A stretch of 64,000 nucleotides of DNA from Caldilineaceae bacterium SB0664_bin_27. Its GTDB lineage: Bacteria; Chloroflexota; Anaerolineae; Caldilineales; Caldilineaceae. Below, piece by piece: positions 21,710-33,900 of the stretch (position 1 is the first letter of the stretch; the number at the start of each line of letters is the position of its first letter). A program made the translations under genes and the position numbers. The notes under the pieces were generated by a model. It was not told where the DNA came from. It did not search any database and saw only the letters and a program-made list of their open reading frames with translations. The stretch is taken from NCBI GenBank assembly GCA_009838625.1, contig VXRG01000097.1:1-64000 (forward strand), in the 5' to 3' direction.

Positions 21710-23373
21710 CAATAAGCCCAATGCGGCGGATACTTGTCCAGCACATAGCCGCCAACGCTCCGAAGGGGAACGGTCCGGAAGAGCTGTCCACCTCCGTCAT
21801 CCCAGCTCTCCAACCGGTCTCTGTGCCCCAGTCGCCGTATCATGCTCCACTCTTTCAGCCTCTGATGACGCCCATTCGTATCCCAGAAACACAGACCGTC
21901 TGCCCCTGCCGCGTAGTACTGGAGTGCCCGCACGCGGAAATCCTCCGGAGGCATCGTTCGCGGCATAATCTCAGGATAGTACTGGACTGTCGAATTGGCT
22001 GTCAGCAGCCCAAAATAGTCGACGTCGATTTCCTCATCCCGCCATGGATAGGAGATCAAATTGTCAATCAAGCCGCCCTCAACCCAGGCTGGAATGTCCA
22101 GTCCATAGAAAAGGTTGCTCTCGGCATTATTCAGGACATGAGCCGAAATCTCTAGCGGTCGCCCTCGCGCCTCGCCTAACTCTGCCATTTCCCGACGTAG
22201 TTCCGCCATGAACTCCGTCATCACTCTCGCCCGGTAACGCAGATACCGCTCGTCATCCTCCGCCAGTTCCCTCGCGTCGAGACCGGTCTCCTCCCTGAAA
22301 CCCTCGACCAGCGGTTCTTCGTACAGCAAGAAAGGCGCACCGCGATTGAAGATCGGATTGACGCCGTCAATGTCGTAGCGCGTGGCCAGTTCACGAAAGA
22401 CTGCCAGCACCAGTTCGCGTACCTCTGGGAAAGCGTAACTCATCCGCGCGATCTCACGGCCGTCAAGATCTACACAGCGCCACTCCGGGTGCTGCGCGTA
22501 GAAGTCGCCCGTAAAGTAGTCCTCAAACGGAGGGCAACACTGAAACGCCTCCATTCGCTGGCTGATGTGGACCTCCAAACCGACGTTGTGCCCGTACTCC
22601 ACCACCGTCTCAATCGTGTCGATGCCCAGCCCCGCCAGAATCTGCATCGACTCCGCGATATAACGGTCGCCCACCCTGGGAAAGTCTCTCGTCTTGCTTC
22701 CGGTCAAGCTGCCGATTGCCGAAGGATAAGTTAGAACGTCGCCGCCTGCTCCCGGGCACCAGAACATCTTCCCGAAGTCGGTATCTCGGAATGGCTCGAG
22801 AAACTCCCAGATCTCCTCGCGGCTCGTTGGTCGGAAGCGCGCGAAATCGCTGAAACCATCGTTCATGCAAATGAGCCGCCTGTGGTCTGCATCGGCACGG
22901 TCGGACTGAAGCCGTGCTACCTCCTCCTCGTCAAGAGGATCTAGCTTTACATAGGCAATGTAGGCCGGATGTGACAGACCCGCCGACTGTTGGGCCAGGA
23001 CCAGGTCCTGGCCGGTAAGGTCGGCTGTCTTCCAAAACCGTTCGTCAAGAGAGTAGTTGTCGGCGAACTTCCCTGGCTCACTCTCGCGGTTCACTTTGAT
23101 GAAGGAACTGTCGCCGGACAGTCTGACGCGTACCAGATCCTCGGTCCAATTGCTCCACAAACCCAGGTAGATCCTGTGCCATCCCGATACGCCAAGCGGG
23201 ATGGTGACAGGCGGCGCTTCTGTTTCCGGGCCGGCAATCAGCATATTGCCGCTGAACTCCTGCGTCTCGTAGGGAACAACCTGCCAGTGGTATTTCCGCC
23301 TCTCGCTGGATAGAGCGAGTTGAGGCAAACCTAGGCCCAAGTCGGTCAGGTAGATCGGCTCAAGTGCAGACAT
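21709..23373 (-). CDS. Putative glycoside-hydrolase-like TIM-barrel protein, copy 2
   Basis: First gene of the minus-strand cluster, 554 residues, paralogous over its full length to the protein at 15234-16970. It has the N-terminal beta-rich region (about 1-150, 'HWQVVPYETQEFSGN') and a barrel region with 'DFGKMFWCPGAGG', 'YAFPEVRELVLAVFRELA', 'PLVEGF', 'MPRTMPPEDF' and 'CFWDTNG'. No export signal is seen. GGGAGGAG at 23380-23387 (minus strand) precedes the ATG. Having one copy at each end of the cluster suggests two related linkages, or a pair acting in sequence on the imported compound. The catalytic residues cannot be assigned by eye. Confidence 0.72.
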   Translation of the reverse strand: MSALEPIYLTDLGLGLPQLALSSERRKYHWQVVPYETQEFSGNMLIAGPETEAPPVTIPLGVSGWHRIYLGLWSNWTEDLVRVRLSGDSSFIKVNRESEPGKFADNYSLDERFWKTADLTGQDLVLAQQSAGLSHPAYIAYVKLDPLDEEEVARLQSDRADADHRRLICMNDGFSDFARFRPTSREEIWEFLEPFRDTDFGKMFWCPGAGGDVLTYPSAIGSLTGSKTRDFPRVGDRYIAESMQILAGLGIDTIETVVEYGHNVGLEVHISQRMEAFQCCPPFEDYFTGDFYAQHPEWRCVDLDGREIARMSYAFPEVRELVLAVFRELATRYDIDGVNPIFNRGAPFLLYEEPLVEGFREETGLDARELAEDDERYLRYRARVMTEFMAELRREMAELGEARGRPLEISAHVLNNAESNLFYGLDIPAWVEGGLIDNLISYPWRDEEIDVDYFGLLTANSTVQYYPEIMPRTMPPEDFRVRALQYYAAGADGLCFWDTNGRHQRLKEWSMIRRLGHRDRLESWDDGGGQLFRTVPLRSVGGYVLDKYPPHWAY

Positions 23374-23931: not shown

Positions 23932-23945
23932 TCTTACACACCTCA
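23932..23945. repeat. Tandem ATGTCTT heptamers upstream of the candidate RNA promoter
   Basis: Two head-to-tail ATGTCTT units (23932-23938 and 23939-23945) end eight bases before the candidate -35 box. Position and tandem arrangement are compatible with a regulator site, but the unit is short and may be chance. Confidence 0.4.
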
Positions 23946-23953
23946 TCTCGATT

Positions 23954-23981
23954 TTGGGATTCTCACAAACTGTGCCATAAT
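23954..23981 (+). promoter_or_regulatory. Candidate promoter for a structured RNA
   Basis: TTGGGA (23954-23959) and CATAAT (23976-23981) are 16 bases apart, matching four and five of six sigma70 positions. Transcription would begin near 23988, exactly at the 5' edge of the structured element. Confidence 0.45.
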
Positions 23982-23986
23982 ACATA

Positions 23987-24103
23987 TGCCATTGTTACAC
24001 TTTTACAGTTAGAACTGGATGGAGCATTGTGCCCCCTTGCCCTGTAATGCGTGTAACTATGGCACCTGCACTCCATTCAGTCAGCAAGGGGGCGCCTCTT
24101 TTT
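23987..24103 (+). ncRNA. Candidate structured non-coding RNA with pseudoknot/terminator
   Basis: Bases 23987-24000 pair with 24051-24064 (13 of 14), continued inward by TTACAG 24003-24008 with CTGTAA 24042-24047. The loop of this stem contains 24029-24040, which pairs with 24084-24095 (12 pairs, one wobble), followed by a T run at 24099-24103. The second pairing crosses the first without sharing bases, so an H-type pseudoknot ending in a terminator-like hairpin can form. A promoter lies just upstream. There is no downstream plus-strand gene for about 2.1 kb, so a free-standing small RNA is more likely than a leader. A miniature inverted-repeat element is the alternative. No known RNA family was recognised. 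Confidence 0.45.
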
Positions 24104-24529: not shown

Positions 24530-25597
24530 TTAATCAAATACCAGCACTGATCGTGCGACTTTGCCTGCCTTCATGTCAGCAAACGCCTCGTTGATCTCAT
24601 CCAGCGGCCTGTAGCGCGAAATCAGCTCGTCCAGCTTGATCTTGCCTTGCTTATAAAGTTCCAGAATCCACAAGAAGTCAACGCGCGGCCTTGCCGCGCC
24701 GTGGAAGGCCCCCATCAATGTCCTGTCCTCGAGCAAGTGCCACCCCTCCACCGAAACATCCTGACCTGTCGGCTGCACACCCACCACGACCGCCGTGCCG
24801 GTCATCCGCACTGAATCGATCGCCTGTCTCACAATCGCGGGAAATCCAACCACTTCAAACGCATAATCCGCCCCTCCGCCTGTGATCTCGGCGATTCGCT
24901 GAACCGGGTCCTCCTTTGCGCTGTTAATAAAGTGCGTCGCTCCCATCTGTTCCGCCAGTTCCAGCTTGTAGTCCACTGTATCAACTGCGATAATCTTGCC
25001 GGCCGCGGCCAGCACACCTCCCTGGATCACGTTGAGCCCCACGCCCCCGCAGCCAAACACCGCCATCGACGCCCCAGTCTCTACCTGCGCTCGGTTCACC
25101 ACCGCACCGATCCCGGTGATCACCCCGCAGCTGATCAAGCACGCCTGCTCGAGTTGTGTGTCATCCGGCACCTTCACACAAGCGTCCGCCAGCGCCAGTG
25201 TCTGCTCCACAAAAGTCGGCCGAACGTGATAAATGGGCTCGCCGTCTTGCCTATACCGGCTCACCGGCTCCATGCGGTGCGTCTCACATAGCGCCGGCCT
25301 TCCATTCGTGCAGTTCCGGCAGCTCCCACACATTGCATCCAGCGAAAGAATGATCTTATCGCCCGGCGCAAAGTCTCGCACACCCTCACCCACCGCCCGC
25401 ACCACACCGGCCCCCTCATGGCCCAGCAGCCACGGCAGGCGCTTCGGGGTTCTGTGGTCAGTAACATAATGGTAATCGCTGTGGCACACACCGGCCCCCA
25501 CGATATCCAGCAACACCTCCCCGAACTCTGGCTCCTCCAGCTCAACATCCTTCACCGCCACAGGCGCGTGCGCCTCGTACATGATCGCAGCCTTCAT
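24530..25597 (-). CDS. Zinc-dependent alcohol dehydrogenase (medium-chain, class III-like)
   Basis: NAD(P)-dependent oxidation of an alcohol, 355 residues. Catalytic zinc ligands are visible as C38 (G-V-C-H-S-D), H60-E61 and C157. The structural zinc site is C90, C93, C96 and C104. The cofactor fold has G-C-G-G-V-G (182-187). Overall it resembles the class III/AdhC branch that includes formaldehyde-linked and NDMA-dependent enzymes. The ATG at 25597 follows a GAAGGAG site. It is flanked by gene-poor regions on both sides and is probably transcribed alone. If the demethylation cluster elsewhere in the window releases formaldehyde, this enzyme is one candidate for handling it (inference). Confidence 0.9.
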   Translation of the reverse strand: MKAAIMYEAHAPVAVKDVELEEPEFGEVLLDIVGAGVCHSDYHYVTDHRTPKRLPWLLGHEGAGVVRAVGEGVRDFAPGDKIILSLDAMCGSCRNCTNGRPALCETHRMEPVSRYRQDGEPIYHVRPTFVEQTLALADACVKVPDDTQLEQACLISCGVITGIGAVVNRAQVETGASMAVFGCGGVGLNVIQGGVLAAAGKIIAVDTVDYKLELAEQMGATHFINSAKEDPVQRIAEITGGGADYAFEVVGFPAIVRQAIDSVRMTGTAVVVGVQPTGQDVSVEGWHLLEDRTLMGAFHGAARPRVDFLWILELYKQGKIKLDELISRYRPLDEINEAFADMKAGKVARSVLVFD

Positions 25598-30521: not shown

Positions 30522-30559
30522 AGCCCGCGTCAGGACTGGCAACTGAATACTTGCTGACG

Positions 30560-30814
30560 CGCGACGAGAGAGACTTCACATTCGAAGCGCCGAAGGGGCA
30601 AGCCGGCGGGACGACCCAACCTGTCCGGTCACACTCTCAGGCAAAAGGATCGTCGCGATACGGCACCTTTGGAAAGCGTCGCCAAACAGGCATTTGGCGG
30701 CCACCGACGGGGCAACCGCACGCCGGCAAAGGCAGGTGGGGACAGAAGAAGACCTCCCCGGTTCCACTTAACACCACGGCGGTGTGCGTCAATCTCTCAG
30801 GTCAAGGACAGAGG
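30560..30814 (+). promoter_or_regulatory. Tandem glycine riboswitch
   Basis: Two glycine aptamers precede gcvP. Aptamer 1 (30560-30657) is closed by a perfect 8-bp P1 (30560-30567 with 30650-30657) and has the hallmark strings GCGCCGAAGGGGCAAGC and CTCTCAGGCAAAAGGA. Aptamer 2 (about 30666-30814) is closed by CCTTTG with CAGAGG and has GACGGGGCAACC and CTCTCAGGTCAAGGACAGA; its arm 3 is enlarged. The linker between them is about eight bases, as in known tandem glycine switches. Together with the terminator downstream this should switch gcvP on when glycine is abundant. The family is well established as controlling glycine-cleavage genes. Confidence 0.92.
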
Positions 30815-30927: not shown

Positions 30928-33900
30928 ATGAGCCCGCAATCCCACACTGTACCGCCCAAAGCCGCGAGCAACGGCCTTGGCAATGCCTCCAGGGAAGGAG
31001 TCGCCTGGCAGCTCGCCGAACACGCCTCGAAGAAGATGGGACGGGAGGGCCTCCTCCAGCGCACAGATGCCTTCGTCCCTCGCCACTTGGGGCCGGACCA
31101 CGACGAGCAGGAGGCGATGCTGCTAACTGTCGGTGTGGATTCGCTCGACCAACTGATCGACCAGACCATTCCTGCTCCGATTCGGCTCCAGCGTCCCCTA
31201 GCCCTTCCCGATCCGCGCCCCGAATCCGACATTTTGGCCGAAATGGCGGAATTGGCCGGACGCAACCAGCTCTTCCGGTCCTTCATCGGCATGGGCTACT
31301 ACGACACCATTACGCCCCCCGTCATCCTACGAAACGTCCTTGAAAATCCCGGCTGGTACACCCAGTACACGCCGTATCAAGCCGAAATCGCACAGGGGCG
31401 GCTGGAAGCCCTGCTCAACTTCCAGACAATGGTTTCCGACCTCACAGCACTGGACATTGCCAACGCCTCCCTCCTTGACGAAGCCACCGCCGCTGCCGAG
31501 GCTATGATGATGTGCAAGCGCGCTCAGAAACGGGGTGCCTCAGGGGACGCCTTTCTTGTCTCCGACAAGGTCCATCCCCAGACCATCGACACCATCAGAG
31601 TCCGCGCCGAACCCTTGGGCTACAAGATCGTCGTCGGCGACCATGGAAATTTCTGCCCCGACTCCGGTACCTTCGGCATCCTCTTACAGTACCCGGACAC
31701 CGAAGGCACCATCAGTGACTACCGCGGTCTGGTCGAAGAGGCTCACGCCGCCGGCGCCCTGGTCGTGGTCGCCACCGATCTCCTGGCCCTGACCCTGCTC
31801 ACGCCACCAGGCGAATGGGGGGCTGACATCGCAGTAGGCAGCGCCCAGCGCTTTGGCGTGCCCATGGGTTACGGCGGCCCCCACGCCGCTTTCATGGCCA
31901 CCCGCGATCAGCTCAAACGACAGATGCCCGGCCGCCTAGTCGGCGTCTCACAGGACGCCCAGGGCAGGACTGCTCTTCGTCTTGCCCTCCAGACCAGGGA
32001 ACAACATATTCGCCGCGACAAGGCCACCAGCAACATCTGCACGGCCCAGGTGCTCTTGGCAATCATGGCCTCAATGTACGCCGTCTACCACGGTCCCGCC
32101 GGTCTCAAAAGAATCGCTCAGCGGATTCAGCTCCTGACCTCCATCCTTGCCTCCCAGCTGCAAGTACTGGGTTACCGCATCACGCAATCCAGTTCCGGCC
32201 CCCTCTTCGATACGTTGAAGATCGACGGAGGACCACACACACAGGATGAGCTTCGCCGCGCAGCCGCCGCACACCGCCTCAACCTTCGCCAATATGAGGA
32301 TGGGGCAGTCGGCATCTCTCTCGACGAAAAGACCACCGCTGCCGAGCTGGAAGCTCTTCTGGAGATATTCGGCAGGCCCCCACGGCCCGAATCTTCTTCA
32401 GCAATTCAGGATGGCCGGCCGCACGCCAACGGCCCCGAACTAGACGCGCTCGCCAGCGAGGTCGCTCTCGACTATCCCGAGCCCTTCGCGCGCAAAAGCC
32501 CCTACCTGACCCATCCAATCTTCAACACCATCAAGTCGGAAACCGAGATGCTGCGCTACATTACCAAGCTGCAGAACCGGGATCTCTCTCTCGCCCACTC
32601 CATGATCCCCCTCGGCTCCTGCACCATGAAACTGAACGCCACCGCCGAAATGATCCCTGTCACCTGGCCCCAATTCTGCGGGCTCCACCCCTTCGCTCCC
32701 CTCGAGCAGGCACAGGGCTACCTCGAACTCTTTGACCGCCTCGCCCGGGCTCTGGCCGAAATTACAGGCTTCGCCGCCGTCTCCTTTCAGCCCAACGCCG
32801 GCTCCCAGGGCGAGTACGCGGGCCTGCTCGCGATCCGGGCTTTGCACCTCAGCCGCGGCGATGACCATCGAGACATCTGCCTCATCCCCTCGTCTGCTCA
32901 CGGCACCAACCCTGCCAGCGCTGTGATGGCCGGCATGAAGGTTGTCGTGGTCCGCTGCGACGAAGAGGGAAACATCGACCTTCCCGACCTCAGAGCCAAG
33001 GCCGAACAGCACAGCAATCAGCTCGCCGCGCTCATGGTCACCTATCCCAGCACGCACGGCGTCTTCGAAGAAGCTATCCAGGACGTCTGCGACCTTGTCC
33101 ACCTCCATGGCGGCCAGGTATATATGGACGGCGCCAACATGAATGCCCAGGTCGGTCTCTGCCGGCCCGGGGACATGGGCGCCGACGTCTGCCACCTCAA
33201 CCTGCACAAGACCTTCTGCATCCCTCACGGTGGCGGCGGACCTGGAATGGGCCCGATCTGCGTCGCCGAACATCTCGCGCCCTTCCTCCCAGGCCATGCC
33301 GTTGTCCCCGGCATCGGCGGCCCAAGCGCTATCGGCGCCGTATCGGCCGCGCCCTGGGGCAGCGCCGCCATTCTGCCCATCTCATACGCCTACATCGCCA
33401 TGATGGGCGGCTCCGGCCTGACCGAAGCCACCCGCATCGCTATCCTCAATGCTAACTACATCGCCGCCCGTCTTGAACCCGCCTACCCCGTCCTTTACAA
33501 GGGAACCCAGGGCCGTGTGGCCCACGAATGCATCATCGACACGCGTTTCCTTAAGGATCACGGCCTCCAGGTCGACGATATTGCAAAACGGCTCATCGAC
33601 TTCGGCTTCCACGCCCCTACAATGTCCTTCCCAGTCGCGGGCACGCTAATGATCGAGCCCACTGAAAGCGAGTCCAAGGACGAGCTTGACCGCTTCTGCG
33701 CCGCCATGCTCGCAATTCGGGAGGAAGTCCAGGCCGTTCAGGACGGCAAAATCAGCCCCGAGGATTCTCCCCTCCACCACGCACCACACACCGCCGACCT
33801 GGTCACCGCCGACCAGTGGGATCGCGCCTACAGCCGAGAAACCGCAGCCTTCCCCGCCAACTGGGTACGAGAAAATAAATTCTGGCCCGCAGTCAGTCGC

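Follow-up and report, generated by a model that had tools for sequence, protein, structure and literature searches.

Structured leaders in which base pairing occupies the ribosome-binding site are an established kind of control element. In the translational pseudoknot riboswitches preQ1-II, SAM-II and SAM/SAH, a 5′ leader contains an H-type pseudoknot, and the Shine-Dalgarno (SD) sequence is sequestered in one of two mutually exclusive folds. A leader-type structured element can also form a separate RNA, as with EutX and Rli55, and can titrate a regulator in that form. Both of these riboswitch-linked standalone small RNAs are named in PMC7602753. The tisB-type toxin mRNA leader combines a sequestered ribosome-binding site, a standby site and a pseudoknot, as outlined in PMC7708055. 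Here we describe an RNA within the window, by which we mean the whole 64,000-nucleotide stretch analyzed from Caldilineaceae bacterium SB0664_bin_27. Judging from sequence, this RNA is probably a standalone derived member of a class of pseudoknotted SD-switch leaders and would act in trans.

The conserved unit at this locus is a 131-bp block (23973–24103) that extends from an extended −10 element to a U-run. In a DNA search of 61 related genomes, the element was found in nine species of one Caldilineaceae genus (the window's own and eight others at 82%–88% identity) and as fragments in two further species, with no match in genera outside this one. The genomes compared are metagenome-derived Caldilineaceae bins, and several isolate names suggest that those of the genus are sponge-associated. 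Tandem second copies occur 380–400 bp away in four genomes (G001, G005, G006, and G015), and these together with the nine orthologues make up our standalone set of 13 copies. Across the set, all 131 bp align with zero indels. Mean pairwise identity is 0.88 in the block, compared with 0.59 in the upstream flank, 0.57 in the downstream flank, and 0.51 in shuffled sequence, and the window copy shares 0.84–0.89 identity with the eight other genomes in the block and 0.50–0.58 in the flanks. The original prediction of a standalone structured RNA is supported, as the block is kept from the −10 to the U-run while its flanks are lost, and the helices of its family covary. It had also named tandem ATGTCTT heptamers, which lie outside the block and are not conserved among homologues. 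Many dispersed genomic copies, which would have pointed to a mobile element, were looked for as well: the window's own genome holds one copy at the DNA level and no near-identical, MITE-like copies, its other family copies being divergent and mostly located before start codons. We also observed two partial relatives in G004 (L030:8360–8700 and L029:8030–8090). In one of them S1 and H5 are intact, with compensatory changes, and an IS607-like relic lies alongside; in the other, only the 3′ part remains, immediately before a secreted-protein gene.

The surroundings of the RNA, described beforehand as gene-poor, look so in the gene map around the element. In agreement with the predicted lack of a downstream plus-strand gene, none of the nine genomes has a same-strand gene 3′ of the RNA. 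The RNA faces a convergent Zn-alcohol dehydrogenase-like gene in eight of the nine, that is, wherever the contig is long enough (the G015 contig ends ~350 bp past the RNA). Since no conserved gene lies downstream, the element behaves as a standalone RNA gene. We discarded the possibility of a small protein encoded across the RNA (CDACNYG...), because its reading frame is not kept among kinase-leader copies. Elsewhere in the window, at 30555–30814, a tandem glycine riboswitch with two aptamers (Rfam matches of 65.6 and 32.0 bits) precedes a gene at 30928 whose 1012-aa product is probably glycine decarboxylase. The features of the locus are as follows.

Start at 23373, minus strand: 554-aa gene, the nearest on one side of the RNA
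23973–23981, plus strand: extended −10 promoter element TGCCATAAT (TGnCATAAT in 7 of 9 orthologous copies)
23987–24001, plus strand: 5′ arm of stem S1, TGCCATTGTTACACT, pairing with 24050–24064 (window extension 24005–24008)
24015–24024, plus strand: 5′ arm of helix H2, CTGGATGGAG, 10/10 pairs with 24071–24080 in all nine orthologues
24021–24035, plus strand: local hairpin H5, GGAGCA-TTG-TGCCCC, competing with H3 (5/6 pairs in the window)
24030–24040, plus strand: 5′ arm of helix H3, TGCCCCCTTGC, an anti-SD-like strand (11/11 pairs in the window)
24042–24080, plus strand: H4/H4′, inner hairpin of the terminator form, in the minimum free energy structure (all pairs kept in nine orthologues)
24050–24064, plus strand: 3′ arm of S1, CGTGTAACTATGGCA, invariant in nine orthologues
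24071–24080, plus strand: 3′ arm of H2, CTCCATTCAG, which doubles as the 3′ side of competing helix H4
24084–24094, plus strand: 3′ arm of H3, GCAAGGGGGCG, with the SD-like AAGGGGG inside
24097–24103, plus strand: U-rich end TCTTTTT after H3 (U-rich tail in 13 of 13 standalone copies)
24530–25597, minus strand: alcohol dehydrogenase-like gene, the nearest on the other side of the RNA

The ends of the block resemble those of a small transcript. The predicted promoter pair TTGGGA/CATAAT is present, although a region like this should contain one match of that kind by chance, and the −35 is not conserved. Of the promoter, homologues share just the extended −10, TGnCATAAT, which most copies keep; it varies in G002 (TGGCAAAAT) and G016 (TGCAATAAT), and the four tandem second copies have a related TGnTAnnAT-type motif at this place. 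The predicted T run after the 3′ helix has five consecutive T in the window and two to four in relatives, and because the run is short in most orthologues, termination may be weak. A terminator scan left the window site unflagged, the hairpin loop being far too long. Small-RNA features in the window thus comprise a conserved −10, the H3 hairpin, a U-run, and no downstream gene. From these we infer an independently transcribed RNA of ~115–120 nt, which would start near 23987 and end at the U-run near 24103.

Both helices of the original prediction occur in the sequence as described: a long stem (23987–24008 with 24042–24064) and a helix between its loop and a 3′ strand (24030–24040 with 24084–24094). 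That such crossing helices are uncommon by chance also holds. In 2000 dinucleotide-preserving shuffles of 23932–24103, a helix as good as the stem arose in 3 and a perfect 10-bp helix in 17, while none combined a 13/14-bp helix with a 10/10-bp helix crossing it; sense-strand folding gave z = −2.67. The 15-position core of S1 has 13 pairs and two mismatches in the window and 13–15 pairs in orthologues, and 99% of H3 cells are paired across the 13 copies. Additional to the prediction are the conserved crossing helix H2 and the local hairpin H5, which in relatives takes the forms GGGGCA.TGCCCC, GGGGACA.TGTCCCC, GGGCGC.GCGCCC, and GGACGC.GCGTCC. We also found that the loop/3′ helix is part of a long hairpin that competes with the first stem, its inner H4/H4′ pairs being 24042–24044 with 24078–24080, 24046–24049 with 24074–24077, and 24051–24055 with 24067–24071.

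Strands follow one another along the RNA as S1a, H2a, the H5 hairpin, H3a, S1b, H2b, and H3b. The three helices S1, H2, and H3 all cross one another, and H5 occupies part of H3a, so that all helices are not easily formed together. The crossing helices of the original prediction are present, but they probably alternate rather than all coexist. In nested folding, which leaves pseudoknot energies aside, the S1 and H3 forms differ by no more than ~5 kcal/mol in all nine orthologues.

The RNA belongs to a larger family, most members of which are leaders of genes. Weak matches of a covariance model built from the 13 window-type copies (R1) were 5′ leaders in which the 3′ strand of the crossing helix (GCAAGGGGGC) stands just before the start codon, and a pattern for this crossing helix revealed many leaders of a second type. 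A model built from these second-type leaders without any window-type sequence (R2) recovers the window RNA at 27.5 bits (genome-wide E of 7.5e-4, a rough value) and matches most orthologues at 23.8–31.1 bits. R2 matches 1–15 places per genome in 17 of 17 genomes of the genus, about seven of them in the window's own, with weak matches in two other genera of the family and matches in 5 of 300 other Chloroflexota genomes. The window RNA has S1, H2, H5, and H3 in the leader-family order (13/15, 10/10, 5/6, and 11/11 pairs). In 41 of 44 leader-type members, ATG or GTG directly follows the CAAGGGGG strand, which resembles a Shine-Dalgarno sequence, against a background chance of 25%. A start codon follows the SD-like strand in 0 of 13 standalone copies (the window RNA and 12 close copies), which is why we interpret the window RNA as a standalone derivative and not itself a leader.

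The folded RNA is evolutionarily conserved. We compared duplex energies of cognate arms with those of arms exchanged between RNAs across 50 members. Cognate S1 arms averaged −34.7 kcal/mol compared with −20.8 when exchanged, and the own partner ranked top in 33 of 50; values were −11.0 compared with −8.1 for H2, a difference of modest statistical weight, and −21.8 compared with −19.4 for H3. Each helix reached the permutation floor (P = 5e-5), and the covariation persists when each cluster under 65% similarity contributes a single member (19 clusters, a modest number of independent lineages). A control pairing without a proposed helix gave a much smaller difference with P of 0.04–0.07, and minor differences should accordingly be read with caution. 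Pairing reaches 96% of cells in the outer S1, with CG, TA, GC, and AT types all represented. The strands of H3 change together, as in CCCTCTTG.CAAGAGGG (L167), GCCTCCTTG.CAAGGAGGC (L135), and CCCTCCTG.CAGGAGGG (L150). Covariation, proposed beforehand as a check on the structure, is thus seen across the 50 members for S1, H2, and the SD-sequestering helix H3; in the 13-copy window group by itself it is limited.

This anatomy and covariation suggest how the leaders could work. H3 would pair the SD strand CAAGGGGG with the CCCCCTTG strand and block translation; in the alternative fold, S1 with crossing H2 and hairpin H5 would remove the partner strand and expose the SD. Since one fold hides the SD and the other frees it, we propose that every leader switches translation between two states. 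In the window copy, the H3 hairpin, the inner H4 helix, and the U-run would instead form a transcription terminator. If this is the terminator of a small RNA, as we propose, its function must lie in trans. The freed RNA would most likely work either as a decoy that draws off the factor reading the leaders or through base pairing by its 5′ arm, for example to the leader of the sensor-kinase gene that adjoins it in seven related genomes.

Genes downstream of the leaders are mutually unrelated and share no common pathway. Their products, most of which we described by sequence features and not by tool annotation, include small secreted or membrane proteins, SH3/Excalibur proteins, and HNH-like proteins, and some leaders precede short peptides located ahead of GmrSD-RecQ genes. 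PADLOC, run on eight downstream proteins, gave matches limited to GmrSD-RecQ types through GmrSD-like and RecQ-like parts, which are too general for us to claim a defense system. In the peptide loci, a leader and a conserved 34–39-aa peptide (e.g., MDLRHTITAR...) stand a few hundred nucleotides ahead of a GmrSD-like or RecQ gene (G001:C198, L177; G003:C528, L107; G005:C136, L108; G006:C87, L109; G000:C90, L166). The GmrSD-like gene of L177 is fused with RecQ domains, at L166 the gene ahead is RecQ, after which come a separate GmrSD-like gene and a single-strand-binding protein gene, and a similar arrangement occurs at L161 in a distant Chloroflexota genome. Five leaders (L066, L075, L163, L167, and L169) lie within ~2 kb of IS1595-like transposase genes, which suggests that a leader and its gene travel as a unit, either carried by such elements or alongside them. 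At L165:6204–6332 in the window's own genome (G000:C90:10203–10331), the start codon is lost (CTG) along with most H3 pairing; this looks like a decaying leader copy, and it lies 0.8 kb upstream of another hybrid sensor kinase paralogue. Two candidates were rejected: L049 from the genome scan, which lies inside a coding region without the fold and appears to be a coincidence, and L179, a G+C-rich chance match (11 bits) to the SD-helix pattern in IMG/VR. The core pattern had no match in IMG/VR, and blastn found none in plasmids.

A gene for a 790–800-aa hybrid sensor kinase, with GAF, PAS, HisKA, HATPase, receiver, and OmpR-type DNA-binding domains, immediately precedes the RNA on the same strand in seven genomes. 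The kinase family is expanded, and its paralogues are encoded at other loci of these genomes. The 5′ region of the kinase gene in the seven genomes contains a 16–17-nt copy of the RNA's S1 3′ strand, so the RNA's free 5′ arm can pair there. The complementarity extends over 14–17 nt in G001, G006, G010, and G016 (−26.8 to −29.5 kcal/mol) and gives weaker duplexes in G005 and G012. This match may serve regulation, or it may stem from a common origin of the kinase leader and the RNA, in which case the complementarity would be a by-product. The kinase gene is absent from the locus in the window genome and in G002, both of which keep the RNA, and in the window the sequence that separates the upstream gene from the RNA holds no remnant of it. 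Either the RNA has targets besides the kinase, or its role is being lost here. We also observed a long hairpin-like element upstream of the hybrid sensor kinase (L020:4965–5235 and equivalents in L022 and L024–L028). Its outer inverted repeat is 20–30 bp long, and it contains a small conserved hairpin around GGTCGGGAAC as well as the segment GCGTGTAACTATGGC, which matches the S1 strand of the window RNA exactly. It may be a separate structured leader.

Several other explanations would account for parts of these observations. The RNA could be an orphaned leader, left over from a lost gene and still transcribed but functionless itself. It has all leader features except the start codon, its S1 carries two mismatches, and other leader copies that lack a start codon, such as L165, look decayed. 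We consider this unlikely, as decay does not fit a block that is indel-free at 84%–89% identity to eight genomes beside unalignable sequence, or a U-rich end that replaces the start codon in every standalone copy. A comparably low probability goes to a metabolite or ion riboswitch, in which a ligand sensed through the S1/H2 pseudoknot controls translation and the standalone copy is a ligand-controlled small RNA. A pseudoknot with a mutually exclusive SD-sequestering helix is riboswitch-like anatomy, and the strands GCTGTGG and CAAGGGGGCACC are strongly conserved. However, the SD helix and the outer stem account for the most highly conserved strands, a search for a clear unpaired conserved pocket found none, and the downstream genes (secreted/membrane, SH3/Excalibur, GmrSD-RecQ, and HNH-like) point to no common pathway.

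Two further explanations place the signal in DNA. A recombination or transposition site, such as an integron attC-like site or an IS end with incidental RNA features, could explain why several copies lie near IS1595-like transposases, the IS607-like relic, a terminase-like gene, or contig ends, why some are tandem, and why the distribution outside the genus is sparse. It is nevertheless very improbable. Neither attC sites nor IS ends would be expected to have a −10-like motif immediately in front and a start codon immediately behind, the SD strand is included in the covariation, and the window copy is single, keeps its position in nine genomes, and shows no insertion or excision junctions at the element ends at the orthologous locus. 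An integron origin or attC array was rejected because the only integrase match in the window's genome (42.7 bits) is far below the cut-off of 265, with weak matches also in all 14 control genomes. We give least credence, and very little, to a regulatory DNA site for the OmpR-type DNA-binding domain of the neighboring sensor kinase. The sequence ATGCGTGTAACTATGGC does recur in a loop-like region upstream of the kinase gene of relatives and also downstream of it, but 131 bp are conserved with compensatory changes in several helices, and the same architecture is found at loci without the kinase.

The reading of the window RNA as a standalone, probably trans-acting derivative of a switch leader also bears on the wider family. 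At the orthologous loci, with a U-run in place of the start codon, the RNA resembles a leader turned free small RNA, a step that is rarely caught. The leaders precede dozens of accessory genes in one genus and are rare elsewhere in the phylum, and their recurrence before unrelated genes calls for a shared trigger for horizontally acquired genes. Standalone copies are a natural candidate for the leaders' trans-acting partner. We tentatively suggest that one shared trigger might control translation of accessory and mobile-element-linked genes through the knotted leaders that spread with them in sponge-symbiont Chloroflexota, and that standalone copies might adjust the entire set in trans, as decoys or antisense regulators.

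Compared with described systems, the family apparently has no counterpart in Rfam or in the titles and abstracts of the open-access literature searched. Rfam 15, at curated and relaxed thresholds, gave no family match over the window RNA or type-B leaders, the best relaxed match, to a plant miRNA model, scoring 22.2 bits where the cut-off is 53.4. Like integron attC sites and IS ends, the leaders are structured, repeated, adjacent to accessory genes, and sometimes tandem, but they carry their own −10-like motif and SD strand. EutX and Rli55 offer a functional parallel for the standalone copy, although the window RNA has no B12 riboswitch match in Rfam. The family resembles the tisB leader, as far as the account in PMC7708055 goes, in having a pseudoknotted 5′ leader ahead of a sequestered ribosome-binding site, and some of its downstream ORFs encode small hydrophobic peptides (L147 and L119). 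Most do not, however, no antisense RNA gene was identified for the family, and sequence and structure were compared through Rfam only. With preQ1-II, SAM-II, and SAM/SAH the leaders share all the features named at the outset, but their helices are much longer (S1 up to ~22 bp and H2 ~10–15 bp), and they have no Rfam match, diverse downstream genes, and no known ligand. By the tests made, the family is in neither class, and by analogy it would work like both the pseudoknot riboswitches and the tisB leader; what appears to be new is the combination of two covarying crossing helices with an SD helix that excludes a local hairpin.
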